DNA of 41,448 nucleotides from a virus. The translations under genes were made by a program, and so were the position numbers. The DNA lies in the IMG/VR virus record IMGVR_UViG_3300023099_000013, positions 1 through 41,448 of that record; one strand, written 5' to 3'. The notes under the pieces were generated by a model that did not search any database, had not been told where the DNA came from, and saw nothing but the letters and a program-made list of their open reading frames with translations. Each line of letters opens with the position of its first letter. The stretch's first letter is position 1. This document shows positions 1-20,000 of the stretch, one piece after another.

Positions 1-136
1 AAGTTGCTTAATTAGCGTAATTTCCATTACTCTATATCAATTGAATCAGTTTCAAAACCTTTAATCCATTTAGGCTTATATGCAGTTCTTAATTGAACAT
101 CGAAAAAGTTGAAACTTTCTGACCAGCGGTTTTCTT
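1..136. repeat. Terminal overlap: circular closure of the genome (copy 1)
   Basis: Bases 1-126 are identical to 41314-41439. After that the right-hand copy lacks one C (base 127), and the next nine bases match again. The genes at both ends fit together exactly when the ends are joined: the exonuclease stop (27-29) overlaps the start of the DUF1367 gene (25-27, equal to 41338-41340) as TAATG. This is most simply an assembly overlap of a circular or circularly permuted genome of about 41,313 bp. A true 135-bp direct terminal repeat is less likely because the repeat runs through coding sequence. Confidence 0.93.
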
Positions 137-1001
137 TTATACATTGTTCTAATTTTGCAACTAGATACTTATATTCTCTGATTCCGTACATCAATAAAGA
201 AACATCTAATTTTATTATTGAGAAATTTAGAGATTTGTCATAAGTAACAAAATAAAACTCAGGCAAACTTCCATCTGCTTCAGAATACATTCCTGCTTGC
301 ATATAGTACTTAAATTTTATAATATCTCTTTCAAATTTTTCAGGATCAGAATCAGCGGTATATTTGAAGTCTATAATAATTCTGATTCCTTCTGCATCGG
401 TAAAACCTTTAAATTTCCAGCCGCTGTAAGTCCATTCGTGTTTAACTTGAAAAGCATTACAGCTGTCAACAAACTGCATAATCAATTCTGATTTTTTAAG
501 ATTTTCAGTTATTTTAAATGCTTCATCTTTCATTTTGGTAGTACACACCATTTTACCCGATTGAATAGCTGTAATGTAGTTTTCTAACTGATTCCATACT
601 TTTTCCAAACCGCCTACTTTGTAGTTATTAGCATAAGCATCTTCTTTTGATTTTCCTTCAAAAATATCATTGCAGAATCCTTTTTGATTATCGCTTGAAG
701 GAACTGAATCTACAATTACAAATTTACTTTCAAATTCATCAGGAGTTGTTAAAAAGCAGTCGCATAAACTTCCAAATATTTGGCTTTCCGTTTGCGGTGT
801 TTTTGGTTTTAATTTATATTGAATAAAATTCCTTGGAGATTTAGAAAAAGCCTTTAAACTTGAATAAGACAATGTTTCTTCTTTTTTTTGTAGCCTTTGG
901 AGTAATTTTATATACTCCGTTGGCTGTTCTTCTTCAATTAATATATTTTCAGAATTAATTAATTCTTGTTCTGAATATTGTTCTGCTAATTCTTTTGACA
1001 T
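27..1001 (-). CDS. RecE/exodeoxyribonuclease VIII-like PDDEXK exonuclease
   Basis: 324 aa. It probably degrades one strand of dsDNA ends to give ssDNA for the adjacent annealing protein, in a phage two-component recombination system. Visible family features are the N-terminal SYSSLKAF segment (45-52), GSLCDCFL (77-84, where the family usually has His at the first Cys), GFTDAE with Asp202, the catalytic DFK at 211-213, and the YMQAGMY helix (233-239), the usual YxxQxxxY signature of PDDEXK nucleases. It lies directly downstream of the ERF gene (4-nt gap), which supports the pairing. The stop overlaps the next gene's ATG across the genome join. Family assignment is strong; polarity and substrate are inferred. 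Confidence 0.85.
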   Translation of the reverse strand: MSKELAEQYSEQELINSENILIEEEQPTEYIKLLQRLQKKEETLSYSSLKAFSKSPRNFIQYKLKPKTPQTESQIFGSLCDCFLTTPDEFESKFVIVDSVPSSDNQKGFCNDIFEGKSKEDAYANNYKVGGLEKVWNQLENYITAIQSGKMVCTTKMKDEAFKITENLKKSELIMQFVDSCNAFQVKHEWTYSGWKFKGFTDAEGIRIIIDFKYTADSDPEKFERDIIKFKYYMQAGMYSEADGSLPEFYFVTYDKSLNFSIIKLDVSLLMYGIREYKYLVAKLEQCIKENRWSESFNFFDVQLRTAYKPKWIKGFETDSIDIE

Positions 1002-1005
1002 AATA

Positions 1006-1578
1006 TTATTTTTTAGGTGTTAATTTTTCTTTTAATTTGTCTTTTTTATCTTTGAAAATTACTTTGTCGGAAGCATTTAAAGAAGTGTATTTAGAAGCAA
1101 GTTCTTCTAATGTTCCTGCGCTGTCTAAATCTAATTCTATATTCAAACGTCTTTCTTCTTCTTTTTTCTTGTTTTCAGCAATTAATTCAGGGTTTTCTTT
1201 TTTAGGCTGTGTAGCTTTATTTCCGTCATCATCTTCTGCACCTACTCCGCAAATAGATTGCAAGCCGTAACGTCTTGCATAAGTTATTCCGCTACCTTGC
1301 GCTTGTGCGTCATTTGGCTTTGAAAATAATATTTCAGTAAATCCTTCCAAACGTTCTCCGCTTTCATGAAGCAATACCGTATTCACAAAGCTTTTTCCGT
1401 CAATAAAAACAGTTGGCTGTAATATTGCTATTCCGTTATTGTGTAAAGCTTCTAAGACAGCTTCTAATACAGAATTTAAGTCTGCGTATTTTGATTTAAA
1501 AAAAGGGTTTGAGTTACCTTTTTTTGGCGTTCTCATTTCTGATTGCGCTTTTATAAATGCTTTGGCTATTTCTGACAT
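1006..1578 (-). CDS. erf: ERF-family single-strand DNA annealing protein
   Basis: 190 aa. ERF proteins anneal complementary ssDNA and often help circularise or recombine phage genomes. The family core is visible: FFKSKYADLNSVLEAV near 27-42, the repeated hydrophobic strands ILQPTVF and VNTVLLHESGERLEG, and the diagnostic SGITYARRYGLQSICGV at 96-112, followed by an acidic patch (EDDDGN). The C-terminal third is charged and variable, as is usual for ERF. It sits immediately upstream of the RecE-like nuclease, so the two are probably made and used together. Confidence 0.9.
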   Translation of the reverse strand: MSEIAKAFIKAQSEMRTPKKGNSNPFFKSKYADLNSVLEAVLEALHNNGIAILQPTVFIDGKSFVNTVLLHESGERLEGFTEILFSKPNDAQAQGSGITYARRYGLQSICGVGAEDDDGNKATQPKKENPELIAENKKKEEERRLNIELDLDSAGTLEELASKYTSLNASDKVIFKDKKDKLKEKLTPKK

Positions 1579-1580
1579 AA

Positions 1581-1841
1581 TTACCTTTTTTGATATTCCC
1601 CACGTTCAACTTTAGCTCTTGAAAACTTTTCGATTTCTTCAATCGTAATTTCAGCATCAATATTCTGTTTAGCCAATTGGTCGCAGAATTCGCTTTCTAC
1701 CGATTTGAATAAGTCTATCTGTTCTTTAACAGATAATTCAATAAAATTTGACTGTTTTAGAAGCTGTAATATTGAATTTTTATTGTCTTCTATATTTACT
1801 TTGTTGTCGGTGTTTAACCAACTTAATAATATTTTTTTCAT
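1581..1841 (-). CDS. Small protein upstream of erf, unknown function
   Basis: 86 aa, acidic and predicted mostly helical (EQIDLFKSVESEFCDQLAKQ). I do not recognise the family. Its stop is 2 nt before the erf start, and its ATG overlaps the stop of the preceding gene (ATGA, 1838-1841), so it is translationally coupled within the recombination operon. No signal peptide, zinc ligands or catalytic motif is visible. Confidence 0.7.
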   Translation of the reverse strand: MKKILLSWLNTDNKVNIEDNKNSILQLLKQSNFIELSVKEQIDLFKSVESEFCDQLAKQNIDAEITIEEIEKFSRAKVERGEYQKR

Positions 1842-2134
1842 AATCTAATAATTTTAAGTTTTAAACAATTTCTTAAATGAATATAATCTTTCTCCTGCTG
1901 TTCTGTCATTCCTAAACAGTTTGCGTAAATTCCTTCTTTTGCTTCCATTTCCTCAATCTGTTTTAATATTCCTTTGATTGATTCGTGTTCTTTTTTTAAA
2001 GAAATATTTGCGTCACTTAATCTTAAAATAATTAATTGTTCTTCTGTAAGCTCAACTTCATCAAACACTTCAATTTTTAAAGATGGGTGTGAAGTGTTTT
2101 CTAATCCGGTTGTTTTATCGTCGTAGTTGTTCAT
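1838..2134 (-). CDS. Small acidic coiled-coil protein, unknown function
   Basis: 98 aa. The middle part (about 30-70) is a charged helix, likely coiled coil (EQLIILRLSDANISLKKEHESIKGILKQIEEMEAKEG). Not recognised. It is in the recombination operon with a 4-nt ATGA overlap to the next gene and a 2-nt gap after the previous one. The tight packing and codon use match neighbouring genes, so I treat it as real. Confidence 0.7.
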   Translation of the reverse strand: MNNYDDKTTGLENTSHPSLKIEVFDEVELTEEQLIILRLSDANISLKKEHESIKGILKQIEEMEAKEGIYANCLGMTEQQEKDYIHLRNCLKLKIIRL

Positions 2135-2136
2135 AA

Positions 2137-2373
2137 TTAAAACATTTTTTCGGTTTGTTCAACAATTTTAAAAATTAATTCATTTGACATTTTATCGAAA
2201 GCGTTATCTCTTTTTTCTTCTGTATTAAAACTCATTTTTTGAGAAGCTTTAGTGCCTTTTATAAAAAATACTATTTCTAAAACATAATAATTATCTTCAT
2301 CTTCATTGTCAAAGTATTTTGATAACAAAACCTGATGATTAGGTGTTTCTACTATTCTAAAATTTATTTCCAT
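2137..2373 (-). CDS. Hypothetical protein, unknown function
   Basis: 78 aa, mixed alpha/beta pattern: alternating strands MEINFRIVETPNHQVLLSK and YYVLEIVFFI, then a C-terminal helix. No recognisable motif. It is separated by 2 nt on each side from its neighbours, which supports a packed early operon. Function cannot be assigned. Confidence 0.65.
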   Translation of the reverse strand: MEINFRIVETPNHQVLLSKYFDNEDEDNYYVLEIVFFIKGTKASQKMSFNTEEKRDNAFDKMSNELIFKIVEQTEKMF

Positions 2374-2375
2374 AA

Positions 2376-2612
2376 TTACTTTTGTTTTAATAGTTCTTTG
2401 AATTGTTCTAGTGTTATTTCTTCTAATGATTTTGCCATTCCTTTTACGATTAGTTTTGACATAATTAAATAGTTTTCAAATGACAGCCAATTAAATACTT
2501 TACCTGGATTTTCTGTGACAAAATTATCTATATTAAATCCTAATAAGTTACCTACTTCTTCAAGCATTTCTTCATTCTCAATGAATAATACCTTGTTTTC
2601 AAATTGTTTCAT
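2376..2612 (-). CDS. Hypothetical protein, unknown function
   Basis: 78 aa, acidic and helical, for example MLEEVGNLLGFNIDNFVTEN and the C-terminal LEEITLEQFKELLKQK. I see no catalytic or binding motif. It is two nt from both flanking genes in the recombination operon. Confidence 0.65.
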   Translation of the reverse strand: MKQFENKVLFIENEEMLEEVGNLLGFNIDNFVTENPGKVFNWLSFENYLIMSKLIVKGMAKSLEEITLEQFKELLKQK

Positions 2613-2614
2613 AG

Positions 2615-2860
2615 TTACTTAATTTTTAAAGTTCCTTTTACTTCGCATCCGTAATCGTGTCCGTGGAAATCTACTGATTCTAAACCTAACTTTTTAGCGT
2701 ATTTACCAATCTTTTCTAAAGCGTTCTTGTGATTATAGTCACGGCTTAATTCCTGTTGCTTTACTATTTCCACATCAGTATTTAATTTTTTTAATAATCC
2801 TGATTGATTTGAGTAATTTGTATCTACCCAATTCTGAAATGATGTTTTTTTTGTTTCCAT
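2615..2860 (-). CDS. Hypothetical protein, unknown function
   Basis: 81 aa. The N-terminal half is helical and charged (FQNWVDTNYSNQSGLLKKLN, IVKQQELSRDYNHKNALEKIGKYAKKLGL). The C-terminus is a short strand-rich segment, VDFHGHDYGCEVKGTLKIK, with two His and one Cys, too few ligands to claim a metal site. It is the second gene of the operon, 5 nt after the lipoprotein gene. Confidence 0.65.
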   Translation of the reverse strand: METKKTSFQNWVDTNYSNQSGLLKKLNTDVEIVKQQELSRDYNHKNALEKIGKYAKKLGLESVDFHGHDYGCEVKGTLKIK

Positions 2861-2865
2861 ATATT

Positions 2866-3228
2866 TTATTTTGTTAATGATTTTAGTATATTTAATTCTT
2901 TATCGGTCATTTCATTTGGAGTTAGTAAAATATCTCCCCAATAACTATCGTCTATTTTTTTTCTTAATCCAATAATTTTTTTACCATATAACTCATCAGC
3001 TGTTTGTTTTGCCTGTCTTATGGTTTTGTCTATGTCTTCGTAATCTCCTGCGCTCATATGTTGTGACGCAGCCCTAACTGTTTCCGTTATCCAAACGCTA
3101 TGTTTTTCTTTTAAAGAATCTGGAATATAATCTACGCTTTCTAATTCATATTTAGGATAATTCACATCCTCTTTTTCCTTACAAGAAACAATTGAAACAA
3201 ACGCTAATGCCAAAATAACTTTTTTCAT
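2866..3228 (-). CDS. Small lipoprotein, first gene of the recombination operon
   Basis: 120 aa. The N-terminus is a clear lipoprotein signal: basic MKK, a hydrophobic stretch (VILALAFVSIVS) and Cys17 followed by KEKED. Acidic or polar residues after the Cys agree with export to the outer membrane in Bacteroidota. The mature part is soluble and charged, with a helical region AASQHMSAGDYEDIDKTIRQAKQTADELYG. Phage lipoproteins made early sometimes block superinfection, but nothing here proves that role. The promoter box at 3257-3264 lies 29 nt upstream of the ATG. Confidence 0.75.
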   Translation of the reverse strand: MKKVILALAFVSIVSCKEKEDVNYPKYELESVDYIPDSLKEKHSVWITETVRAASQHMSAGDYEDIDKTIRQAKQTADELYGKKIIGLRKKIDDSYWGDILLTPNEMTDKELNILKSLTK

Positions 3229-3256
3229 AATAAATATTTTACTAATTAATGTTACG

Positions 3257-3264
3257 CAAATATA
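3257..3264 (-). promoter_or_regulatory. Bacteroidota-type promoter -7 box (TATATTTG)
   Basis: On the minus strand the box reads TATATTTG, a perfect match to TAnnTTTG, 29 nt upstream of the lipoprotein gene. No good TTTG -33 box is present. Further upstream lie a 12-bp palindrome (ATAATTAATTAT, 3286-3297) and the element TGTTAAAGTT (3297-3306), which recurs inverted near two other promoters of this genome. Confidence 0.6.
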
Positions 3265-3310
3265 CGTGTAATTATGTTATTGTGTATAATTAATTATGTT
3301 AAAGTTTTAA

Positions 3311-3342
3311 AAATAAAAAACCCACTCGTTAGAATGGGTTTA
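3311..3342 (-). terminator. Intrinsic terminator after the spanin-like genes
   Basis: On the minus strand AAACCCA, a loop, then TGGGTTTTTTATTTTT forms a GC-containing hairpin followed by a T tract. The stem overlaps the stop codon of the gene ending at 3340. It separates unit K from the promoter of unit A. Confidence 0.8.
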
Positions 3343-3741
3343 CTTTACTGCTAAATATCCGCTAAACATAAGGCTTAACACGGTGGTTATCTTCCAAAAT
3401 GTATTTCCTAATTTTTTTTGTATAATTTCCTTTTCGTTGTTTTCAATAATTTTTTCATAATTATTTAGCCGTGTATCTTTAGATTTAACCAAACTTTCAA
3501 ATGCTTCAATCTGTGAATTCAGGTTTTCTGTTTCAAATTCTTTGTTCTGAAGTAATTCGTTTTGCGTATTAAGCTGAATTTCTAAATTAAGCACTTGCTT
3601 TTCTAAATAATCCTTTTCGATCAATTCTTTGAATGCTCGCCTGGCATCTTCAACCTTTACTTCAATCTTTGTGGTATCTTTTTGGGAGAAAGCTTGACAG
3701 CTGATTATGGTCATAGCTATCAATAGTATTCTTTTTTGCAT
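3340..3741 (-). CDS. Spanin-like protein: exported, coiled coil, C-terminal hydrophobic segment
   Basis: 133 aa. The N-terminus is an export signal (MQKRILLIAMTIISC) with a plausible lipobox at Cys15, although cleavage after AFS by signal peptidase I is also possible. A long coiled coil (about 25-110) follows, then a hydrophobic C-terminal segment TVLSLMFSGYLAV. An N-terminal lipobox plus a C-terminal membrane segment is the layout of unimolecular spanins, which fuse inner and outer membranes at lysis. The start lies inside the preceding gene (80-nt out-of-frame overlap), which is the Rz/Rz1 arrangement of two-component spanins. Which model applies cannot be decided from sequence alone. Confidence 0.6.
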   Translation of the reverse strand: MQKRILLIAMTIISCQAFSQKDTTKIEVKVEDARRAFKELIEKDYLEKQVLNLEIQLNTQNELLQNKEFETENLNSQIEAFESLVKSKDTRLNNYEKIIENNEKEIIQKKLGNTFWKITTVLSLMFSGYLAVK

Positions 3742-4036
3742 CTTTTTCTATTATTAAGGTTTTGTAGTTTGTTTTATGGTTGGCTAAATCCGTTTTTAAG
3801 GCTGTATTATTGGATTTAATAAGCTTTAATGAATCTTGAAGTACTAATATTGATTCATTTGTTTTTGATTCGTTAGATTTAAGTATTTCATTTTGACCTT
3901 TAAGCTCTGCGTTTTTGATTTGAAGTCTTGAAGTGCTTGTGGATAACAAAGTGAATATTATATATCCGGCCATTACTAAAATAATCCAAAAGTAATATTG
4001 TGATGTGTCTATTGAAAATGTGAATTGCTTTTTCAT
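3662..4036 (-). CDS. Rz-like i-spanin candidate: N-terminal TM plus coiled coil
   Basis: 124 aa. One N-terminal transmembrane helix (about 15-33, YYFWIILVMAGYIIFTLLS) is followed by a periplasmic-type coiled coil (about 36-105). This is the layout of inner-membrane spanin subunits that act at the last step of lysis. The 3' end overlaps the start of the exported downstream protein in another frame, as in Rz/Rz1. No sequence identity to a named Rz is visible, so the call rests on architecture, size and overlap. Confidence 0.6.
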   Translation of the reverse strand: MKKQFTFSIDTSQYYFWIILVMAGYIIFTLLSTSTSRLQIKNAELKGQNEILKSNESKTNESILVLQDSLKLIKSNNTALKTDLANHKTNYKTLIIEKDAKKNTIDSYDHNQLSSFLPKRYHKD

Positions 4037-4037
4037 C

Positions 4038-4313
4038 TTATCTTAATTCTATTTTTTGACAATAACATTCATTTATGTTCTTAATTTTGTTCCAATTTTT
4101 AAAATGTTTATTTATATATTCTTCTTTTAACCATATAAAACCAAAATCATCTTCTTCAAAATTTGAATAGTAATTTTTCCATTTCTCAAGAAGCCTATTA
4201 AATTTTTCTACATATTTTTCTGCTTTATTTTTGTCGTCAGTAGAAAATATTATATTCTGATAAAAATCATCATAATTTCCTGAACTATAACCTAACAAAT
4301 ATATATTTTTCAT
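4038..4313 (-). CDS. Hypothetical protein, unknown function
   Basis: 91 aa, rich in aromatic and charged residues (FSTDDKNKAEKYVEKFNRLLEKWKNYYSNFEEDDFGFIWLKEEYINKH). The first strand MKNIYLLGYSSGNYDDFYQNIIFST followed by a long helix looks like a small alpha/beta host-takeover-type protein. No motif supports a function. It ends 2 nt before the Rz-like gene. Confidence 0.65.
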   Translation of the reverse strand: MKNIYLLGYSSGNYDDFYQNIIFSTDDKNKAEKYVEKFNRLLEKWKNYYSNFEEDDFGFIWLKEEYINKHFKNWNKIKNINECYCQKIELR

Positions 4314-4316
4314 AAT

Positions 4317-4403
4317 CTAAAATATTAAGTTATACACAAATATTAATCCTGAAAATGCAAAAACTATCTTCCAATAGTTAGATGCGTGGGTGTATTTATT
4401 CAT
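4317..4403 (-). CDS. 28-aa single-pass membrane peptide
   Basis: Short ORF reading MNKYTHASNYWKIVF and then a hydrophobic tail (AFSGLIFVYNLIF), stop TAG. Residues 11-28 form one likely transmembrane helix. It fills the gap between the zinc-ribbon gene (stop at 4428) and the 91-aa gene (start at 4313) with codon use like its neighbours. Small single-TM peptides next to lysis genes can be pinholin or antiholin-like, but that is inference only. Confidence 0.5.
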   Translation of the reverse strand: MNKYTHASNYWKIVFAFSGLIFVYNLIF

Positions 4404-4427
4404 TTATATTTGCCAATTACCATAAGC

Positions 4428-4640
4428 TCAAGTTCCTACTATTTTTAAGCAGGATTCCTTTTTACACTCTAGTGAATATTCTTCTATATAACCTTCCCCA
4501 TAATACATATTCACTTGTTTAAATTCTTTACAGCCACAAGAGCATTTTAAAGGCATACCATCTTCTGAAATATAACCATCTTGTACCTGCATAGCCATAT
4601 AATCTTCAAATGATATAATATCTTTATTATTTTTTTCCAT
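4428..4640 (-). CDS. Small zinc-ribbon-like protein
   Basis: 70 aa from the ATG at 4640 (MEKNNKDIISF). A longer reading from 4682 would place the start inside the leader RNA and is rejected. Four Cys positions, CSCGC then CKKESC near the C-terminus, suggest a small zinc ribbon. No enzyme motif is visible. It is the first gene of unit K and lies 12 nt after the leader pseudoknot described at 4652-4704, so its translation is the most likely direct target of that RNA. Confidence 0.65.
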   Translation of the reverse strand: MEKNNKDIISFEDYMAMQVQDGYISEDGMPLKCSCGCKEFKQVNMYYGEGYIEEYSLECKKESCLKIVGT

Positions 4641-4651
4641 AATATAAAAAA

Positions 4652-4704
4652 TAATGCCCCCACTCGCTACAAATGAAGGCATTAATAAATTTTAGTTGTA
4701 GCGA
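4652..4704 (-). ncRNA. Leader pseudoknot 1 (unit K)
   Basis: RNA from the minus strand. Arm A (4704-4696, UUCGCUACA region) pairs with A' (4672-4664): on the plus strand TTGTAGCGA and TCGCTACAA, 9 perfect pairs. Arm B (4684-4678, UAAUGCC) pairs with B' (4658-4652, GGCAUUA), 7 pairs plus a flanking U.G. The order is A-B-A'-B', so the helices cross. It ends 12 nt before the ATG at 4640 and begins directly after the -7 box TACATTTG (4709-4716). It is closely similar in sequence and layout to leader 2. Confidence 0.65.
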
Positions 4705-4708
4705 ATTA

Positions 4709-4716
4709 CAAATGTA
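4709..4716 (-). promoter_or_regulatory. Promoter -7 box (TACATTTG) of unit K, inside a direct repeat
   Basis: Minus strand TACATTTG matches TAnnTTTG. It sits within one of two direct repeats of AATTCRCTACA (copies about 17 bp apart); the second copy is arm A of the pseudoknot. The -33 region has no good TTTG. Transcription would begin at the 5' end of the pseudoknot. Confidence 0.5.
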
Positions 4717-4807
4717 GTGAATTATTTATTAAGGGATTGTGTTATTTAAGTTTTTTGGTGTTTTCTTAAATAATGAACTGTTCGGAATTTCCGTTTGGTT
4801 GAATAAA

Positions 4808-4835
4808 ACCATTTTGTTGACGTCAACAAAATGGT
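4808..4835. repeat. Perfect 28-bp palindrome
   Basis: ACCATTTTGTTGAC and its exact reverse complement are adjoined without spacer, centred between 4821 and 4822. It lies 10 bp downstream of the 54-aa gene. On the minus strand it is followed by TTTTATT, so as RNA it could be a hairpin with a 4-nt loop and act as terminator of unit J. As DNA it is also a full dyad site for a dimeric protein or recombinase. Confidence 0.75.
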
Positions 4836-4845
4836 GAAAAATATT

Positions 4846-5010
4846 TTAAAATAAATTTCGTTTTAATCCAAAATTATTTTTATACGTAGTTTTTTTAAAT
4901 TTAATTTTTCGCCTTTCTGAACGATTTAAAGGCGTATTTTCTTTTAAGTCTTCGTGATTTATAGTTGAATATTGAAGTCCTAGTATTGGATGGTAATAGA
5001 AGTTTTTCAT
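4846..5010 (-). CDS. 54-aa basic protein, unknown function
   Basis: Reads MKNFYYHPILGLQYSTINHE and continues with a strongly basic C-terminal half (NRSERRKIKFKKTTYKNNFGLKRNLF). The charge suggests nucleic-acid binding, but no fold is recognised. Its ATG overlaps the TGA of the 25-aa ORF upstream (ATGA), which supports coupled translation. An upstream in-frame TAA fixes the start. It is followed by the 28-bp palindrome. Confidence 0.6.
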   Translation of the reverse strand: MKNFYYHPILGLQYSTINHEDLKENTPLNRSERRKIKFKKTTYKNNFGLKRNLF

Positions 5011-5084
5011 ACGCTTGTTCCCCCATTTTTAAATCCGTGTACAATATTTAAAATAATATCCCCGTACCAAGTTGATGATTTCAT
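5007..5084 (-). CDS. 25-aa ORF coupled to the 54-aa gene
   Basis: Reads MKSSTWYGDIILNIVHGFKN and ends GGTSV, with TGA overlapping the next ATG. It lies after a possible -7 box TATCTTTG (5109-5116) that is itself inside the flank of the upstream terminator. Too short to classify; the ATGA overlap is the main argument that it is translated, possibly as a leader peptide. Confidence 0.4.
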   Translation of the reverse strand: MKSSTWYGDIILNIVHGFKNGGTSV

Positions 5085-5120
5085 AATAATTTGTTTTAAA
5101 TTTAGATTCAAAGATAATAA

Positions 5121-5151
5121 AAAAGCCTTGACAAATCAATGCAAGGCTTTT
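5121..5151. terminator. Intrinsic terminator (10-bp stem), usable in both directions
   Basis: AAAAGCCTTG and CAAGGCTTTT form a perfect 10-bp stem with an 11-nt loop and A/T tracts on both sides. It directly follows the stop of the 27-aa ORF on the minus strand, so a transcript from about 5280 should end here. Confidence 0.8.
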
Positions 5152-5233
5152 AATCAATATTACAGTATTGAAGCAAATAAAAAAATCTGTAAATTTTATA
5201 GGTGAGTGTTTGCTTACCGGTAATGACGTACAT
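5150..5233 (-). CDS. 27-aa ORF ending at a terminator
   Basis: Reads MYVITGKQTLTYKIYRFFYL and ends LQYCNID. Its stop touches the terminator stem (5121-5151), and a TATTTTTG box lies upstream at 5279-5286, so a minimal transcription unit of about 130 nt is formed. This could encode a peptide or be a small RNA. The 5234-5300 stretch holds no other gene. Confidence 0.35.
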   Translation of the reverse strand: MYVITGKQTLTYKIYRFFYLLQYCNID

Positions 5234-5307
5234 TTGCCTTGAAACACACAAATTATTTTCAACCTACTATTTGCTTTTCAAAAATACAAAACTATTCCAA
5301 ATAAAAA

Positions 5308-5339
5308 AACCGCTTTCTCCTTTTTATCGGGAAGCGGTT
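5308..5339 (-). terminator. Intrinsic terminator after the endolysin gene
   Basis: AACCGCTT and AAGCGGTT pair (stem extendable by a further G.T and G-C pair). On the minus strand the stem is followed by TTTTTTTATT. It starts 11 nt after the endolysin stop. Confidence 0.85.
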
Positions 5340-5349
5340 CTAAAATTAA

Positions 5350-5724
5350 TCACCAACGTGCTTTTTTACCTCTTCTGTCATAATGAACGAAACCTTTGTA
5401 AATCCCAATACCGCCTTGCTCCATTTTACCCGAAGTAATTAACCTTTCAATTTCTTTAGCTAATTGAATTGGTGTATATCCTTTTGCGTTTATATCCGCA
5501 GCGTTGCAGGTCAGATGCTGGCTGTTAGTCGCTCCTTTTACTCTTGCATTATGCGAGGGTGTTCTATATCCGCTACCTGTAATCGATATAGGAACATTCA
5601 AATGATCCCGCAAAACCTGAAGATTTTCAGCTACCTTTCTACAATTATCAATATATTCTTTAGGGACTTTTGTTCCATCCTTACAATCAAATTCTTTTGA
5701 ATTAAAGTTTTTCGTTAGTTGCAT
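5350..5724 (-). CDS. Peptidase M15-type endolysin
   Basis: 124 aa. It most likely cleaves peptide cross-links of peptidoglycan (D-Ala-D-Ala carboxypeptidase or L-Ala-D-Glu endopeptidase class) to release phage. The M15A motif set is complete: YRTPSHN (53-59), SQHLTCNAADI with zinc ligands His70 and Asp77, GGIGIY, and FVHYDRRG with His114. It has no signal peptide and needs a holin to reach the wall; the membrane protein genes directly upstream supply that context. The length is typical of the compact phage M15 enzymes. Confidence 0.9.
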   Translation of the reverse strand: MQLTKNFNSKEFDCKDGTKVPKEYIDNCRKVAENLQVLRDHLNVPISITGSGYRTPSHNARVKGATNSQHLTCNAADINAKGYTPIQLAKEIERLITSGKMEQGGIGIYKGFVHYDRRGKKARW

Positions 5725-5729
5725 AATTA

Positions 5730-6089
5730 TTATTTTTTGCCTGTTATTAAATTTATTAAAAATGTTCTTCCGGCATCTATTAAAGAACCTAAAAGCATAT
5801 CAATATTGAGTTTATAAAGTAAATATTCCATGATTTTTTCAGATGTAATTGCGATAACTGCAATCATCAATGGTTGGTAATCTATGCCGACAACCCTTAT
5901 AATTATTCCAGAAGACAGCCAAGCCAAACCCACTCCCGATATAACCGAAATTACCGCCCTCTTTATGGTCATTTTTTTTCTTTCCATTTCGATTGCTATT
6001 TTTATGCTTACCCCGATAAGAGCAGGTAGCAGAACTTTAAAAAATAAAGCCAGTATTTCATCGATTAGGGGTATCTGTTTTTCTGGCAT
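5730..6089 (-). CDS. Holin-like membrane protein
   Basis: 119 aa with about three hydrophobic segments: IPLIDEILALFFKVLLPALIGVSIKIAI, AVISVISGVGLAWLSSGIIIRVV and PLMIAVIAITSEKIMEYLLYKL, separated by a basic loop (MERKKMTIKR). It ends 5 nt before the endolysin, the classical holin position. The family is not recognised by a specific motif; the call rests on topology, size and neighbour. Confidence 0.65.
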   Translation of the reverse strand: MPEKQIPLIDEILALFFKVLLPALIGVSIKIAIEMERKKMTIKRAVISVISGVGLAWLSSGIIIRVVGIDYQPLMIAVIAITSEKIMEYLLYKLNIDMLLGSLIDAGRTFLINLITGKK

Positions 6090-6393
6090 ATTTATATCTA
6101 ATGTATGTTATTATTACCAAAATAATGGCAAAAAAGTATTCATTTAACCCAATTTTAGTATTGTCGAAAAAAAGTTCGTCTAATAAGTTGTTGAAAGAAA
6201 GGCATAAAAGTACGAAACTTGCAAGATATATTCTTAATTTAATCCAAATTATAAGGCATAATATAAAAATAAAAAGGGAATTGCCTATAAAAAATAAGCA
6301 ATCCCTTTGAACCTGATCTAATCCAAGCTTATTCCACAAAAGATAAACTAATACAGATACAGCAATAGAAATATTTAACAATATCCTAACCAC
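6058..6393 (-). CDS. Membrane protein in the lysis cassette
   Basis: 111 aa, with three to four transmembrane helices (about 4-20, 32-52, 55-75, 84-100) and a basic C-terminus (RYKYARKTDTPNR). The 3' end overlaps the holin-like gene by 32 nt. It could be a second holin or an antiholin, or an unrelated envelope protein. Confidence 0.6.
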   Translation of the reverse strand: MVRILLNISIAVSVLVYLLWNKLGLDQVQRDCLFFIGNSLFIFILCLIIWIKLRIYLASFVLLCLSFNNLLDELFFDNTKIGLNEYFFAIILVIITYIRYKYARKTDTPNR

Positions 6394-6508
6394 GTGTTTT
6401 AGGGCGTGTTCCGATGAGTTCCAACTCTACTTTTAACAAGATTTCATTAGCTTGTTTCATAGCTTCGATTTGTTCTTCAGTAGGTTCTACTTCTTGCAAA
6501 ATTTTCAT
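6386..6508 (-). CDS. 40-aa protein at the head of the lysis operon
   Basis: From the ATG at 6508 it reads MKILQEVEPTEEQIEAMKQA and ends GTRPKTRG with TAG overlapping the next gene by 8 nt. The main part is one amphipathic helix. An ATG at 6568 in frame is less likely because it would translate the probable promoter region. Function unknown. Confidence 0.55.
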   Translation of the reverse strand: MKILQEVEPTEEQIEAMKQANEILLKVELELIGTRPKTRG

Positions 6509-6581
6509 TTTATTATTTATTTTTAAGTTTAGGTGTAAAAGTAATGAAATTATTTTATATGTTTGCAATGTAATTATGATC

Positions 6582-6659
6582 GTGGGGAAAATTAATTACA
6601 AGTAAAATTTAGTTTAAACCCTTTGATTTCAGAACCCCACTTCTGTTTTCAAGGGGTTT
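6582..6659 (+). ncRNA. Leader pseudoknot 5 (plus-strand unit L)
   Basis: Arm A (GTGGGG, 6582-6587) pairs with A' (CCCCAC, 6635-6640). Arm B (AAACCCTTTG, 6616-6625) pairs with B' (CAAGGGGTTT, 6650-6659), 10 pairs with one G.U. A' is exactly the 6-nt loop of an inner hairpin CAGAA/TTCTG (6630-6634/6641-6645), so the transcript's 5' end would kiss the loop of a long hairpin. It ends 21 nt before the ATG at 6681. The -7 box is weak (TAATTATG, 6571-6578). The B/B' hairpin followed by TTTT could also be an attenuator. Confidence 0.55.
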
Positions 6660-6680
6660 TATAATTTAAGACAATTATAT

Positions 6681-7178
6681 ATGGAATTAACTGCTAAAGA
6701 AAAAAAAGCTGAATATGATCGTATTTATAGAATTAAGAATTTAGAAAAAATAAATGCCAACAAAAAAGCTTATAATGAATCTCAAGCAGGAAGATTGATG
6801 CAAAAAAAATCTAGAGAGAAAAGAGGACAGGAAAAGCAAAATGAATATTGCAAAAAACCTGATCAAAGGCAAAAGGAAAGGATTAGGCGTTATAAAATAA
6901 ATGGAACTTTAGGTATTTTAAAATTCTGCATAGTTTGTGAATCAAATAAGCCTATTTTAGAATTTAGAGGATCAAGAATTTATGAAGACAGAAGATACCA
7001 TCTTTGCTTAAGTTGTGAATCAACACACAAAAAAGAACTTGGAGTTACTACGAAAGGAATTATTCAGGCTATTGTCACAAGATGTAATTACCGACTTACA
7101 AGGCAAGACGTTGCAAAACACCCTTATTTTATAGAAGCAAATAAATATTTAATCACTTTAAAAAAGTTAGTACAATGA
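6681..7178 (+). CDS. Basic zinc-finger protein, possible DNA-binding or nuclease-like
   Basis: 165 aa. The N-terminal half is highly basic and helical (KKAEYDRIYRIKNLEKINANKKAYN, KERIRRYKING). Two CxxC knuckles follow, CIVC (about 83-86) and CLSC (about 109-112), flanking RGSRIYEDRRYH. This spacing resembles the zinc site of phage endonuclease VII/HNH-like proteins, but the catalytic His-Asn set is not evident. It is the first gene of the only plus-strand unit and lies behind leader pseudoknot 5. It overlaps the next gene by 4 nt. Confidence 0.7.
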   Translation: MELTAKEKKAEYDRIYRIKNLEKINANKKAYNESQAGRLMQKKSREKRGQEKQNEYCKKPDQRQKERIRRYKINGTLGILKFCIVCESNKPILEFRGSRIYEDRRYHLCLSCESTHKKELGVTTKGIIQAIVTRCNYRLTRQDVAKHPYFIEANKYLITLKKLVQ

Positions 7179-7369
7179 AAAATGTTAAAGAATTACGTGA
7201 CGCTTTAGTAGATGTTTTCGAAAAGGTAAAAAGTGGAGACATGGACACTACACAAGGAAAAACATTAGTAGCCACAAGTAATGCAATGCTTAAGTCAGCT
7301 CAATTAGAACTAGAGCATTCTAAAATGATTGGGAAGTCAAAAGAAATTAAATTTCTTAAAACCGAGTAA
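7175..7369 (+). CDS. Small helical protein, unknown function
   Basis: 64 aa, entirely helical with pattern MKNVKELRDALVDVFEKVKSGD, then a second helix KTLVATSNAMLKSAQLELEHSKM. I recall similar small proteins in flavobacterial phages, but no function. The start overlaps the stop of the zinc-finger gene (ATGA), so the two are probably co-translated partners. Confidence 0.7.
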   Translation: MKNVKELRDALVDVFEKVKSGDMDTTQGKTLVATSNAMLKSAQLELEHSKMIGKSKEIKFLKTE

Positions 7370-7414
7370 TAAACTAAAACCTTTGAAGTGATATAGGGAA
7401 CTTCTGAAATTATT

Positions 7415-7681
7415 ATGAAATACATTTGTATAGTTTGTATAATTATTTCTTTTTATAGCTGTAAAAAAACAGAACTAAAAAATTCACAAGAATTAATTAC
7501 TAATGGAAGTTTTCAGTTAGAATTTCTTTTTGAGCAAAACGGATGCAAAATGTATCGTTTTGAAGATAATGGAAGATTTATTTATTGGACTGACTGTCAA
7601 GGTAAGATACAATCTGATTATGAGAGAAACAATGGAAAACACAGAAAATATTATAAAGAAGAAACAATAACAACTGAATAA
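7415..7681 (+). CDS. Small lipoprotein, DUF4884-like
   Basis: 88 aa. Lipoprotein signal: MKYICIVCIIISFYSC with Cys16 followed by KK. The mature part has the pattern FQLEFLFEQNGCKMYRFEDNGRFIYWTDCQG, which resembles the DUF4884 family found in Bacteroidota genomes and phages (assignment from memory). Two Cys in the mature domain may form a disulfide. It is the last gene of the plus-strand unit and ends at a strong terminator. A role at the host surface, for example superinfection exclusion, is only a possibility. Confidence 0.65.
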   Translation: MKYICIVCIIISFYSCKKTELKNSQELITNGSFQLEFLFEQNGCKMYRFEDNGRFIYWTDCQGKIQSDYERNNGKHRKYYKEETITTE

Positions 7682-7716
7682 AAAAATCCCCCATCGAATC
7701 AACGTGGGGGATTTTT
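7682..7716. terminator. Bidirectional terminator between converging units L and G
   Basis: AAAAATCCCCCA and TGGGGGATTTTT form a perfect 12-bp stem with an 11-nt loop, with A and T tracts on both flanks. It serves the plus-strand lipoprotein gene and the minus-strand late operon ending at 7761. Confidence 0.93.
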
Positions 7717-7760
7717 AATTTTAACTCACAAAACACATATGAAAGCATAAATATAATAAA

Positions 7761-7988
7761 TTATTTATTGTCTTCAATGTTTTTCTGTATTATTTCATCT
7801 TTCTTTGCATTTCCTGAACTGCTACCGAAGTAATATCCACTTGATCCTCCCATAAGTCCCACAATAGCTATCAATATCTGGTCATTTGGCTTTGTTTCTG
7901 TAAATGTTGCCATAAAAAAATATGCAAAACCAAGAATTATTACCACTAAAGCTAAAATAGGCTTTATATTGTCTGCAAAAACTTTCAT
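7761..7988 (-). CDS. Small phage membrane protein with YYFGSSSGNAKK motif
   Basis: 75 aa with two hydrophobic helices (about 10-28 and 39-53), then YYFGSSSGNAKKDEII. This tail motif is common in small membrane proteins of phages and gene transfer agents annotated as holin-like (GTA holin type). It is the last gene of the structural operon, overlapping the fibre gene's stop. It may be a second holin candidate or a tail/host-membrane protein. Confidence 0.65.
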   Translation of the reverse strand: MKVFADNIKPILALVVIILGFAYFFMATFTETKPNDQILIAIVGLMGGSSGYYFGSSSGNAKKDEIIQKNIEDNK

Positions 7989-8929
7989 CAGTAAGTGGAT
8001 TCAGTTCCAGTTACGTATGTTACAGATGCCGTGCCTGATGTTGACGTTCTAATCCTTACCAACGCATTAGCAGGAATTGTTGACGTCAAAGTTCCTGTCT
8101 GGGAATTGTTAAGAGCTATTGCAACTACTGCGCCAACACTATTCGAATTTCCGTTTTGAGATGGGAGCAACCAAGTAGTGCCTCCGTTCAAAGAGTATTC
8201 CAAATAAGCGGTTGCAGTTGAAGAACCCGCTAATAAAGGATTAGTAGCAGAACACGTTACAGAATAGCTTACATGGGCTGTTTTTGTAGTTGAAACAGTA
8301 AAGTTTGAATTTAAAGACCTTGAAACTACATTTACCGAAGGAGGCAATAATGAAATTGTCAAATTTGGATAAGTTCCGGTTATTAAAATTCCGTTTCCGG
8401 CTGTTAAGTTGACATTTGTATATGTTGGAAGAGTTACAGAGTTTCCTCCTGTAATGCCTAATAAGTTACCTGACAATGTAAGCCCCTGTATTTCATTTGT
8501 AATGCTTCCGTCAGCCTCTACGCTCAACTTATTATTCCAATTTGCCTTGTCAGAATCTGAAACAAATCTGTGTGTTGAATTTTGAACGATATTTGAGGGA
8601 TTTGTCTGGTCTAAATTTTGCACGTTTGAAAAGTTTTCATTTTTCAAATATCCTTGCGAATCTGTAAAAGCTTTAAGTCCAGTAATCTGACTTGCTTTCC
8701 ATCTTAATGAATCTTTAGGAAACAGCTTAAACTTGTAGATGTCGTTCATGTCTCCAACATCGATAACGCTGTCAAGGAAGTAGAAATTATCAATATCTGC
8801 ATTCCTGCTGAAAAATTGTTCACGACCTCCATAAATAGGCTGATTGAAATCGAACTGCGGAATGGTCAAAAGCTGAGAATTAGATGAAAGGCTTATCAGC
8901 ATTAATAATAATAGGATTGTTTTTTTCAT
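7988..8929 (-). CDS. Fibre-like structural protein with N-terminal export signal
   Basis: 313 aa. The N-terminus MKKTILLLLMLISLSSNSQ is a typical Bacteroidota signal peptide, unusual for a virion protein. The central part has phage-fibre features: THRFVSDSDKANWNNK and the repeat-like NEIQGLTLSGNLLGITGGNSVTLP. The C-terminal region (about 195-313) is Ser/Thr-rich beta structure. It is located among tail genes, so a receptor-binding or fibre role is likely. The signal peptide could instead point to a host-surface protein of recent origin. Confidence 0.65.
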   Translation of the reverse strand: MKKTILLLLMLISLSSNSQLLTIPQFDFNQPIYGGREQFFSRNADIDNFYFLDSVIDVGDMNDIYKFKLFPKDSLRWKASQITGLKAFTDSQGYLKNENFSNVQNLDQTNPSNIVQNSTHRFVSDSDKANWNNKLSVEADGSITNEIQGLTLSGNLLGITGGNSVTLPTYTNVNLTAGNGILITGTYPNLTISLLPPSVNVVSRSLNSNFTVSTTKTAHVSYSVTCSATNPLLAGSSTATAYLEYSLNGGTTWLLPSQNGNSNSVGAVVAIALNNSQTGTLTSTIPANALVRIRTSTSGTASVTYVTGTESTY

Positions 8930-9234
8930 TTTGAACTGTATTTAATTAATAATTGGTTTTTGTTTTCTCTATATTCTGCACGCATTTCTTCGTATTTTTC
9001 TTGTATATCTTCTGGTATGTCAATACCCCTCATTACTTTTCTTTGCGTATGTTCGTAAATAAGTTCTGATATTTTTTTTCTTGTATTTTCCCTAAGAATC
9101 TCTATTTCTGAATTTAACTGTTCTGTTTCAGAATCTTCAAATTCAATTTCTTCAACTTGCCAGCTTTGAGGAAAATTATTTTCCTTTTTTTCTTCATATC
9201 CACCAGCTGGATTATGTCCTCTATATTTTATCAT
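8926..9234 (-). CDS. Small charged protein between fibre genes
   Basis: 102 aa, strongly acidic with a long coiled-coil helix (IEFEDSETEQLNSEIEILRENTRKKISELIYEHTQRK and a second helix at 75-95). It overlaps the next gene by 4 nt and starts 2 nt after the large fibre gene. Position and composition fit a fibre assembly helper or connector, but the family is not recognised. Confidence 0.6.
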   Translation of the reverse strand: MIKYRGHNPAGGYEEKKENNFPQSWQVEEIEFEDSETEQLNSEIEILRENTRKKISELIYEHTQRKVMRGIDIPEDIQEKYEEMRAEYRENKNQLLIKYSSK

Positions 9235-9236
9235 CG

Positions 9237-11576
9237 CTAAAAATTATTTAGATAGTTAGGTCTTTTCGGAAACGTCATAACTCTTGCTATTTGGTAAATA
9301 TCATCGGCTGAAGCTATAGAGCTTAAACCGCTGAAACATATACGATTATGTGTCCATGCATCTATTGTAGCTATTGGTATATTACTTGATGTTGAAGAAT
9401 TATATATAAGATCTCCTGTAATGCTTCCTTTTCTGATCCTGCACAAACATGAGGTAGAACTTACAACCTCAAAAGAAACGTATAGCCAAGAAGTGTCAGT
9501 TAATGTTATAGTGATTCCAGAAGACACAAAACTGTTGAATGCAGTCTTTAGCGTAAGCTGGTTGTTTACTATATCCAAATAGATTCCGGTCGGTGTTGAT
9601 GATGTAGGACTCTGATTGTGTACGTTGCAAAGTCCGAAATAACCAAATGTATTTTCGAGCTTCAATGGTTTCATTATGAAAAACATATAGCTTCCTGCAT
9701 ACATAGGATTCTGGGAAGCAACGCCTATAGCACTTCCTGAATTTATAGCAGATGCGCTTCCTCTGATAGTCCAAGCTTCCGCTATAGATTTTGGTCTTCC
9801 AATCCTTAATGGAGCTATCAATCCATCTGATTGCGTAGCCACAGAACCGCCTGCAACATTGGATATTATCATTGGATAGGCAGTAGACGGCGTATTGAAA
9901 GCAAAGTCGAAAAAAGGCTGTTGAAAAAAGTCATTAGCATTTAAAACATATTCCGCAACCGCTTGGGTGCTTGGATAAGTTGTGTTGTTCGGAGAAGAAA
10001 AGTCAGTCCTTATATTCGAAACAAGTTGTTTAAGCCCAAGTTCTGAAGAAATATCTGATAAAGATTTCTTAATTTTTCCGAATGCCACTAATATACTGTC
10101 TTCAGGAAGTATTGCGCCTGAAATATTTATAAGTCCCGACAATATAGTGGAAAGAACTCTTAATCCAGAGAAATATAAATTATTGGTTCCTTCTGACACG
10201 CTATCCGTGTTTAGGCTGTCAAATTTAGATTCAACATATTCTGGCGTAGCTATATTAAATATGGGATTTTGTGGGTCTGAAAGGTCTATTGCTTCAGAGT
10301 CTAATGAAGATACTGATTGAATTCCAGAACCTGCATAATTTGCCTGTATTCTTGCCAATCCTGTAAAGTCATAGAAATCTACTGACTGACCCGATTTTAA
10401 TAAAAAGTTACCTCCGGCTTCATTAAAAATTTTAAAATTACCATCAGCTCCTGGCTCTCTATAATCATAAAATAAAATATCTGAACCTTGTTGATTGATA
10501 AGTTTTCCCTGCTTTCCTTTATAAGTTTCATATCCATCTTCAATTTGAAATCCTGGAACAACGTTTACGCTTGAAGAATCAGAAAAAGTTATGGAAGAAG
10601 AAAGGCTTTGCAAAATAATAGGTTCAACAACTCCATTACCCGTTATTACAAGCAATGTTTTTTCTTCCTTTTCTATAAACCTGCCACCTAAATCTGGATT
10701 TTCCGGAATGTTTACAATGTTATCCTCATAAATTGATATGTATGTAAGTTCTAAAGTTCCTAAAGGCTTAATCGGTTTGATTGCTGTTCCTTCTCCAAGT
10801 GATGAAACTCCTTGTATTAATGTAAAGTAATTAGGTGTTTCTGGGTCTGTTACTATAATGTCTATTCGGCTTTCGCCTGAAGGAGCATTTTCAATATTTA
10901 TTATCTGATCTTCTGGATTTCCGTATTGTATTCCAGAAATAAGCCATATAAATCCTGTTGTTATTAAAAGCGAATTAGATTCAATGCTTAATTCCCCCAA
11001 TTGTGTAAATTGGTCAGGAGGTGTGTTTTCAATGGTGGGAAAATCCTCAAAAACAATCATTGGAAAAGTGTTACCAGAAACACTTACCATTTGAACTCTT
11101 GGAATCTGTCCTACCATATCCGAAGTAATAGCTTCTGATAAAACATCTGTCAAATCCGTAAAAGCTATATTTGTAGCAGGATTATCAATAGCGATTATTT
11201 TATTTTGCGCTTCATCTACGGCTAATATTTTTCCATTAAGCCCTATAAAAGTTGCAAAGGTATCGGTTAATTCTTTAAAAGTGTTAACCCCTCCCGATTC
11301 AGAACCAACACTTTCGTCAAAAAAACCTATTTGCTGTAAACGGATGTGCATAGCCAAAGCTGAAGAAAAAGTTTCTGCTCCACCGCCTTCAGTTTCATCG
11401 ATTATCTGAGCATTATAATAAAATACTCTTTCGACTAATCTTGCACCGCTTTTAGACTTGAAGTCGAAGAAATTTCCTCTTCTCAAAGCTGACCAATCGC
11501 TTGCTGATATTACTTCTTCGGAATCTCGAATTATATCGAATACCCCATTAGCTCTTTTATAAATTAAATCTGCCAT
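9237..11576 (-). CDS. Tail fibre / receptor-binding protein
   Basis: 779 aa. The N-terminal region starts MADLIYKRANGVFDIIRD and carries virion attachment-like sequence. The middle has beta-rich repeats and a coiled segment (SDISSELGLKQLVSNIRTDF, then STQAVAEYVLN), typical of trimeric fibres. The last 200 residues (FFQQPFFDFAF to the end) look like a jelly-roll lectin-type domain, a likely receptor binder. It ends in TAG, then CGA and an in-frame TGA. Its start overlaps the upstream tail gene's stop. Confidence 0.75.
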   Translation of the reverse strand: MADLIYKRANGVFDIIRDSEEVISASDWSALRRGNFFDFKSKSGARLVERVFYYNAQIIDETEGGGAETFSSALAMHIRLQQIGFFDESVGSESGGVNTFKELTDTFATFIGLNGKILAVDEAQNKIIAIDNPATNIAFTDLTDVLSEAITSDMVGQIPRVQMVSVSGNTFPMIVFEDFPTIENTPPDQFTQLGELSIESNSLLITTGFIWLISGIQYGNPEDQIINIENAPSGESRIDIIVTDPETPNYFTLIQGVSSLGEGTAIKPIKPLGTLELTYISIYEDNIVNIPENPDLGGRFIEKEEKTLLVITGNGVVEPIILQSLSSSITFSDSSSVNVVPGFQIEDGYETYKGKQGKLINQQGSDILFYDYREPGADGNFKIFNEAGGNFLLKSGQSVDFYDFTGLARIQANYAGSGIQSVSSLDSEAIDLSDPQNPIFNIATPEYVESKFDSLNTDSVSEGTNNLYFSGLRVLSTILSGLINISGAILPEDSILVAFGKIKKSLSDISSELGLKQLVSNIRTDFSSPNNTTYPSTQAVAEYVLNANDFFQQPFFDFAFNTPSTAYPMIISNVAGGSVATQSDGLIAPLRIGRPKSIAEAWTIRGSASAINSGSAIGVASQNPMYAGSYMFFIMKPLKLENTFGYFGLCNVHNQSPTSSTPTGIYLDIVNNQLTLKTAFNSFVSSGITITLTDTSWLYVSFEVVSSTSCLCRIRKGSITGDLIYNSSTSSNIPIATIDAWTHNRICFSGLSSIASADDIYQIARVMTFPKRPNYLNNF

Positions 11577-12880
11577 TATAATATAATTGTTATTGTTGTT
11601 ACCAAACCATCTTGACTTATACTGCTTACCAATGTTTGACCTTGTATTGCGTTAATAGTAGTTTCTGATATTCCGTTATTTGGAAAGTTTTGTGAAACTC
11701 CGTTGTTTGTCCATGTCATTACAGGATCATTCGCTTCATCTGAAACATATCTTGCACGCAATTTATACTGCGTTGATGATATTTTTTCAGTCAGAAGAAA
11801 ATAAAATCCATTAGCCTGATTTATGAAAGCCTTATTTGAATAAACTCCCGCACCCGCTTGATAAAGCCTAACCTGATAAATGGTAAAGTTTGGATTTGAA
11901 GCATAAGGCAAATTTACTATTCTTGGAGAAACTGAAGTTCCTGTATTTCTTATTTCTTCATCTACTAATGTCTTATACAAAACCGTTACATATTGCGGAT
12001 TGAAATTTTCCTTGACAAAATCAATAAAAAAACTTCCATATATATTACCATTTCTTCGCATATCTGTTATTCTCAACAAAGGCGGTAAAGGCGGTATTGG
12101 TTGCGGAATTATAGGAACAAAATTAGGATTATAAAAATCTGAATTATCAAAAGTAAGTTTAATATCTTGCTCTATAAAATTCTCATTCGCTTCCAATAAT
12201 GGTATTTCAAAAGGCTCAAATATTGACGTTCTCATTAGATTTAAATAAGTTTCCTTGAAATCAAAAACTGACTGCAACAAAACCAATGCCTCAATGTCGA
12301 TTATTCCAGTTCTCCATAATTCAGAATATTGTGATTTTATAGTATTTGTGCGTGTTCTTTCAGTCGTTATTTCATAATATTGAGCATATTCTTTTACAGG
12401 CGTTTTTTGGATATAATTCAAATTAACCTGAACCGACTGCATAAATTCTGAATCATCATTTCTATAATCTATTCTTGAAGTCCTTTCAGATTCTTCTGAA
12501 CTTATAAAAAATGGTGTCGAATAAAATGTATCTCCGGCTAATTGATTTACTTCTAAATAAACTAATCTGTTTCCACAATCTGGCAAATCAGTTAACTTCC
12601 AAGTAATTTGAGGAAGTCCCGTGTCAGAGTCTTGGAAATTGTCAACTACATCAAAATTATCAGTTATATCTGCCAAAGTTTCCCCGCAAATTGACTTTAC
12701 AAAAACCTCCCAATCTTCCAACTCTATACCTTCATTATTAAATGTGGTTTGTATGTATGGATAAATGTTATTTGGCAACAACTGAACACCCTTAAATGAA
12801 TAAAACTGCATATCAGGATTATTTCTATAATACATAGCCTTTTCAAGGTTGTGCTCCAATGATATAAAGTTTAGTTTCAT
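11576..12880 (-). CDS. Tail tip/baseplate-associated structural protein
   Basis: 434 aa, beta-rich throughout. About residues 1-245 form one region (MKLNFISLEHNLEKAMYYRN, IYPYIQTTFNNEGIELEDWEVFVKSICG). A proline-rich linker (VPIIPQPIPPLPPLL) follows, then two Ig-like beta regions to the C-terminus. The linker suggests an anchor domain plus exposed adhesin domains. It lies between the large tail protein and the fibre. Specific family not identified. Confidence 0.65.
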   Translation of the reverse strand: MKLNFISLEHNLEKAMYYRNNPDMQFYSFKGVQLLPNNIYPYIQTTFNNEGIELEDWEVFVKSICGETLADITDNFDVVDNFQDSDTGLPQITWKLTDLPDCGNRLVYLEVNQLAGDTFYSTPFFISSEESERTSRIDYRNDDSEFMQSVQVNLNYIQKTPVKEYAQYYEITTERTRTNTIKSQYSELWRTGIIDIEALVLLQSVFDFKETYLNLMRTSIFEPFEIPLLEANENFIEQDIKLTFDNSDFYNPNFVPIIPQPIPPLPPLLRITDMRRNGNIYGSFFIDFVKENFNPQYVTVLYKTLVDEEIRNTGTSVSPRIVNLPYASNPNFTIYQVRLYQAGAGVYSNKAFINQANGFYFLLTEKISSTQYKLRARYVSDEANDPVMTWTNNGVSQNFPNNGISETTINAIQGQTLVSSISQDGLVTTITIIL

Positions 12881-19530: not shown

Positions 19531-20000
19531 TGTCCTATTCTTTTTTTTACGTACCTGATTAAGTCGATTGAGTAGTGTTTTTTTTGTAGCTGATTAAAAG
19601 TTTCTTGGTTTAATCCCATAATATCCAACCCGTATTTTGATATTAAATCTCCTGCTTTTGGATCATTACTCGAAAATAAATATCCGTTGCCTGATGTTCG
19701 TCTTGGAAACAAGCTTCTTTCAAATTGTCCCGTAAGAATCAAATCCACATATCCTTCTCCGGCTAATGGATTTAACTGATTCTTAAAAATAGAATATGAT
19801 AATCCGTTTGGCATGATATAATTTCGATATCTTCCAATTTCAGATCCATCTGGCCTATCTCCTTTTAGGAACTCGTTTCTTTTGGCTTGTTTCAGTTCCT
19901 TCGGCTGGAATAGGATTATTTCCTCCATTTCCTCCTGCAAGTCCTGAAGCGTTATCGCTGTCAGTCTTCGGCTCATTTCCCTGAACGATATCCCCGCCAT
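19527..20000 (-). CDS. Virion-morphogenesis-type protein (GDRPDGSEIGRYR motif)
   Basis: 157 aa. Residues 47-60 GDRPDGSEIGRYRN and later VDLILTGQFERSLFPRR and ISKYGLDIMGLNQETF match a pattern I recall from small head-tail or tail-completion proteins of Bacteroidota phages. The 5' part overlaps the upstream gene by 146 nt in a different frame. The start at 20000 (MAGISFREMSRRL) is chosen because the helix EEMEEIILFQPKELKQAKRNE runs continuously into the motif. M9 is an alternative start. Confidence 0.65.
   Translation of the reverse strand: MAGISFREMSRRLTAITLQDLQEEMEEIILFQPKELKQAKRNEFLKGDRPDGSEIGRYRNYIMPNGLSYSIFKNQLNPLAGEGYVDLILTGQFERSLFPRRTSGNGYLFSSNDPKAGDLISKYGLDIMGLNQETFNQLQKKHYSIDLIRYVKKRIGQ

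Follow-up and report, generated by a model that had tools for sequence, protein, structure and literature searches.

In attenuators of the pT181/pIP501 type, control is exerted by an antisense RNA made from the opposite strand and acting in trans. The CI RNA of phage P4 and the c4 antisense RNA of phages P1 and P7 are trans-acting as well and serve immunity, and the leaders of IncI repZ and of T4 gene 32 use kissing loops or pseudoknots in translational control. In the pT181/pIP501 type, loop-loop RNA contact controls a terminator located in the leader, and many orthogonal loop pairs are possible (PMC3753616); the c4 antisense RNA is listed in PMC2864571. The put RNAs are about 70 nt long with two stem-loops, and those of phage HK022 have a conserved sequence, bind RNA polymerase and act on distant terminators (PMC9378689).

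Leaders that recall these systems in some respects occur in a virus contig of 41,448 nt (IMG/VR record IMGVR_UViG_3300023099_000013), analysed over its whole length and hereafter called the window. This contig constitutes a separate virus record. Metagenomic virus contigs include many relatives of its portal, terminase and primase-helicase genes, and relatives of the primase occur also among cultured Flavobacterium phages. A preliminary description had assigned five of its leaders to one RNA family sharing a pseudoknot, in which an arm A pairs with A' and an arm B with B' in crossing order:

4641-4716, minus strand: E1, type member of the preliminary description
40180-40256, minus strand: E2
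36465-36534, minus strand: E3
26345-26419, minus strand: E4, the portal leader
6582-6659, plus strand: E5

The crossing A/A' and B/B' pairings were readable in all five leaders. In E1, E2, E3 and E5, the other proposed traits were also recovered, namely a TAnnTTTG-type box followed by arm A, B ending in CCU and B' starting with GGG, and a U-rich segment 3' of B' with an ATG shortly afterwards. As judged from their relatives, these four leaders belong to a conserved RNA class and stand beyond chance; E4, which lacks A:A' covariation, had to be set apart from the proposed family.

The class comprises about 80-118 nt of structured RNA. Arm A lies at the 5' end of the transcript, usually inside a small hairpin, P1, which in E2, E3 and E5 presents A in or beside its loop. 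The B/B' helix is present, but it accounts only for the lower portion of a longer local hairpin, P2, which contains A' in its loop or upper stem. P2 is terminator-like, counts 12-17 bp with its upper part, is followed by U's and ends about 22 nt ahead of the first ATG. The A:A' pairing has a length of 7-11 bp. A plain H-type pseudoknot could not be retained as the common fold: most members are predicted kissing loops, the contact being loop-to-loop where P1 is present, and leaders of the E1 type (including 4641-4716) are modelled as competing antiterminator (A:A') and terminator (P2) folds, mutually exclusive because A' lies within the 3' half of P2 and P1 is absent. In E2-type leaders, A' is additionally enclosed by a short hairpin, P3, and an internal loop, UGAA/GGAU, is conserved.

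By analogy, the working principle resembles that of known attenuators, the pT181/pIP501 type in particular, with which the class shares a leader terminator and a loop-loop contact; here, however, the partner A lies in cis, at the 5' end of the leader itself, and not on a trans antisense RNA. The exclusive choice between antiterminator and terminator in the E1 type is also typical of riboswitches and leader-peptide attenuators, but the class has neither a conserved ligand pocket nor a leader ORF (the portal leaders do have an ORF). As with HK022 put, structured RNA stands at the start of phage operons, yet put has conserved stem-loop sequences that bind the beta' zinc-binding domain of RNA polymerase, whereas sequences vary widely between members of the class; P2 moreover resembles a terminator itself, and there are no distant terminators to be suppressed. 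Long-range loop pairing right upstream of a start codon is shared with IncI repZ and T4 gene 32, from which the class differs by its terminator form with U-tract and by recurring at many operons with loops that differ. With P4 CI and P1/P7 c4 it shares the control of phage leaders through short stretches of RNA-RNA complementarity, although no trans RNA was found here. The bacterial cis-regulatory RNA DUF805b (Rfam RF02914, E 4e-7) is present in the same window at 33747-33779 (minus strand), in the E3 operon ahead of a small gene, but it is unrelated in sequence and fold and is located elsewhere than the leaders. No Rfam 15 family matched the leaders at gathering score (window and seven member loci) and no described kissing-loop leader of flavobacterial phages was found in the open literature covered, so that the class appears undescribed, as had been supposed.

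The elements of the four members and their first genes are:

4696-4706, minus strand: E1 arm A, 5'-terminal antiterminator arm without P1, covarying with A' in 8 E1-type leaders
4662-4672, minus strand: E1 A', in the 3' half of the terminator hairpin
4652-4684, minus strand: E1 P2, 15-bp intrinsic-terminator-like hairpin including B/B', then TTTTTT
4428-4640, minus strand: E1 first gene, zinc-ribbon-like
40243-40261, minus strand: E2 P1, hairpin TGTAA-CTCACTACA-TTACA with A (40249-40256) in its loop
40180-40229, minus strand: E2 P2, terminator-like hairpin interrupted by a UGAA/GGAU internal loop, then a U-tract (covariance-model match, held-out A:A' test)
40200-40207, minus strand: E2 A', with P3 (CCTG/CGGG) within P2
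39509-40159, minus strand: E2 first gene, replication protein/replisome organiser
37707-39509, minus strand: primase-helicase, after the E2 first gene
36523-36538, minus strand: E3 P1, hairpin AAATC-CGCCAA-GATTT presenting A (36527-36534)
36465-36510, minus strand: E3 P2, terminator-like hairpin whose loop contains A' (36483-36490), followed by TTTTT
36139-36456, minus strand: E3 first gene, DUF7768, nucleoside 2-deoxyribosyltransferase-like
6569-6600, plus strand: E5 P1, hairpin TGTAATTA/TAATTACA, loop with A GTGGGG (6582-6587)
6616-6659, plus strand: E5 P2, terminator-like hairpin that includes P3 (CAGAA/TTCTG), its apical loop being A' CCCCAC (6635-6640)
6681-7178, plus strand: E5 first gene

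P2 of E1 is the longest-stemmed of the terminator-like hairpins found in window positions 1-20000, and folding gave -17.3 kcal/mol for P2 vs -12.2 kcal/mol for A:A', the two being largely exclusive. The frame of its first gene is open as far as an ATG at 4682, within P2; a leader ORF through P2 was nevertheless rejected for the E1 type, this ATG being absent from several relatives. Upstream of the E1 promoter, at 4808-4835 (minus strand), a perfect palindrome, ACCATTTTGTTGACGTCAACAAAATGGT, is followed by TTT and may be a terminator or an operator.

The window was scored with a descriptor combining the box, A:A' and a terminator-like B hairpin. Three of its 83 TAnnTTTG boxes scored at least 50, against 0.2 predicted from dinucleotide shuffles, a control proposed with the preliminary description; the E3 box ends in A, and this leader enters at score 61 once TAnnTTT[GA] is allowed. 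Taken alone, the window scores for E1, E2, E3 and E5 are suggestive. The descriptor weights were fixed after examples had been seen, and the case was therefore rested on independent tests in relatives. A covariance model was built from ten E2-type leaders, none of them from the window, with only P1, P2 and P3 modelled and A:A' omitted. This search gave a match of 53.6 bits to E2 (40180; E 3e-8 to 9e-9), but E1 was borderline (21 bits, E about 0.5). Among the 20 non-redundant matches outside the seed, A scored 19.8 against its own terminator loop and 12.3 against the loops of others (0 of 20,000 permutations), two members failing the own-loop match. Protein comparison yielded no relatives of the E1 zinc-ribbon gene, and E1 relatives were consequently located via the leader itself. 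In the eight E1-type leaders the covariation score was 0.295, vs 0.143 when shuffled (0 of 500) and 0.07-0.16 for slid versions of A:A'; examples of A/A' are TCGCTACA/TGTAGCGA, TCACGACAA/TTGTCGTGA and TCACCACAA/TTGTGGTGA. A:A' covariation was thus found by tests for the E2 and E1 types, and in individual relatives for E3 and E5: two relatives of E3 (G002 33162 and G014 38551) kept A:A' while P2 was altered with compensation, and leaders of different sequence were found at the place of E5 (G001 and G002). Stem sequences that change with pairing kept, and leaders in related phages, had both been anticipated.

Other properties of the matches pointed in the same direction. The best ones had 5.2 T per 8 nt after P2 vs 2.8 in the background, T's not being required in the search. 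Strong matches lay 9-54 nt upstream of an ORF start (ATG, at least 40 codons) in 42 of 43 cases, compared with 18% of background boxes, position having been unused in finding them. The matches were also enriched in a TTG lying some 20-24 nt upstream of the -7 box, as expected for this promoter type. When the window was taken together with 20 relative contigs, 33 box matches scored at least 56 vs 0 expected and 81 scored at least 50 vs 10 expected, some neighbouring boxes being the same element. At the level of sequence, then, the anatomy, the position ahead of a gene, the U-tract and the A:A' covariation can be regarded as established, and the relatives settle that E1, E2, E3 and E5 are more than chance. 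Crossing stems arising by chance within AT-rich leaders are a scarcely credible explanation: generic low-score stems are indeed common in such DNA, and E4 is of this kind, but held-out covariation, the independent covariance-model match and the positional test all speak against it, and for the E2 and E1 types it is ruled out by the held-out A:A' test and the E1-type covariation, respectively.

Strong members were also present in cultured phages:

14106: lillamy9-5
9366 (ahead of a helicase gene) and 14342: hattifnatt9-1
14769: hemulen6-1
9711, minus strand: elemoA 13-1A
28564: Danklef_1, a Polaribacter phage

The covariance model supported the hattifnatt member (9370, E 6e-5). A search of 199 Flavobacterium genomes returned three matches, of which only one (L319), probably in a prophage, was convincing; the other two were beside integrase genes, in palindromic repeats, and without leader match. 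Another candidate (L315) was discarded as a gene-end terminator. With a single convincing member in these genomes, the class looks phage-borne.

The portal leader E4 represents a separate type:

26345-26376, minus strand: terminator hairpin of the portal leader, outside the class
26328-26408, minus strand: leader ORF encoding MRRTLNRNYNLILTYGNIGRDFLRLI, running through the terminator, its stop abutting the portal ATG

Among 14 non-redundant portal leaders, A:A' covariation was absent (own 13.0 vs cross 12.5, 875 of 5000 permutations); E4 was rejected as a class member, its A:A' being no better than cross-pairing among these relatives. Conversely, 22 of the 23 portal leaders with a promoter box had an ORF of 23-28 codons (ATG or GTG) through the terminator, which stopped at the portal ATG or a few bases from it, and this conserved ORF is found in portal leaders of L002-L042. 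The pyrBI operon is controlled by attenuation via translation of a leader peptide, and by analogy the portal leader ORF suggests a likely attenuation of the structural operon in this manner. Between the terminase and the portal leader lies a segment of about 330 bp (26436-26760, minus strand) in which no clear long ORF and no terminator were found.

Attenuation was one of the functions proposed in the preliminary description and fits best, since P2 and its U-tract together are shaped like an intrinsic terminator. E1, E2, E3 and E5 are probably cis-acting transcription attenuators that work through contact of the 5' arm with the terminator loop. A stable hairpin with U-tract lies between promoter and first gene, and an alternative pairing exists, exclusive in the E1 type and a loop contact in the others. 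RNA polymerase would start at the TAnnTTTG-type promoter and transcribe arm A first, usually displayed by P1, and would then make, in order, the 5' arm of P2, the loop or upper stem containing A', the 3' arm of P2 and finally the U-tract. A' would thus be exposed to A ahead of the synthesis of the P2 3' arm and A:A' could form first, which is a reason for favouring a cis attenuator. A:A' would delay or block closure of P2, as an alternative fold in the E1 type and as a kissing-loop contact with the terminator loop in types containing P1, and transcription of the operon would depend on a free A, which might be governed, for example, by how P1 folds, by the precise start site or by the binding of a factor. 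Termination by P2, its opposition by A:A', the direction of control and the identity of the regulator are what we infer from these sequences. Medians over 61 leaders were -17.1 kcal/mol for P2, -23.0 for the nested P1+P2 fold and -10.9 for the isolated A:A' duplex, and the nested A:A' fold was less favoured thermodynamically than the terminator fold in almost all members. With the terminator winning at equilibrium, antitermination must be kinetic or assisted. In the kissing types, A:A' and P2 could coexist and the contact might instead aid termination.

The tight spacing between P2 and ATG (about 22 nt) also fits translational control, the kissing or pseudoknotted leader hiding or presenting the start of the first gene. 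A copy of A at the start codon, able to pair with A', is found in E2 (CTCACTATG) and two other leaders (L087 and L124). Such copies are confined to a few cases (6 of 68 at p<=0.05, with about 3 being expected), a third copy of A having been dismissed as a class feature, and U-tracts right after GC-rich arms are a terminator trait; translational control is considered possible but less likely than attenuation. In E2 itself the copy lies at 40162-40172 (minus strand), and A' could pair with either A or the start region. A terminator blocking read-through from the upstream operon, passed by local transcripts while upstream RNA sequesters A, would suit E2 and E3, which are at most 30 nt from the upstream gene end with no other terminator found between. 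It is nonetheless highly improbable: complementarity of the 100 nt upstream to A did not exceed that of shuffles, and E1 is preceded by a terminator of its own.

Structured RNA of about 70-95 nt at the transcript start ahead of several operons is also what a put-like or nut-like element would look like, loading the elongation complex for processive antitermination as had been suggested earlier. This role did not hold up and is distinctly improbable, because each strong internal terminator of the window (34426, 28853 and 3341, minus strand) precedes a fresh, plain TAnnTTTG promoter and no read-through is needed; the class, moreover, ends in its own U-tract and varies freely in sequence, while fixed elements are common to the putL sequences aligned in PMC9378689. 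A role limited to stabilising the 5' end or providing an RNase processing site, with no regulatory switching, would agree with the burial of the 5' end in P1 or A:A' in most members, but is improbable too, as it leaves the terminator form and the specific targeting of the terminator loop by A unexplained. Antisense control from the opposite strand was rejected, promoter boxes over the leaders occurring there at the background rate (6 of 43 vs 0.12). Every leader has both A and A' in a private sequence, and short terminated leaders might therefore build up and act in trans, each on nascent leaders that share its sequence and on no others; such self-specific action is conceivable, though quite doubtful. 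It would provide self-specific RNA feedback, or a superinfection-exclusion address for each operon of each phage.

The cultured phages lillamy, hattifnatt and hemulen (Flavobacterium sp. LMO6/LMO9) carry the class, which makes direct testing possible, and its many natural orthogonal kissing pairs would be usable as regulatory parts. Little is known of gene regulation in Bacteroidota phages, and a phage-borne class of structured RNA that covaries strongly and exists in many natural versions orthogonal in sequence suggests that a layer of their transcription control has gone unrecognised.
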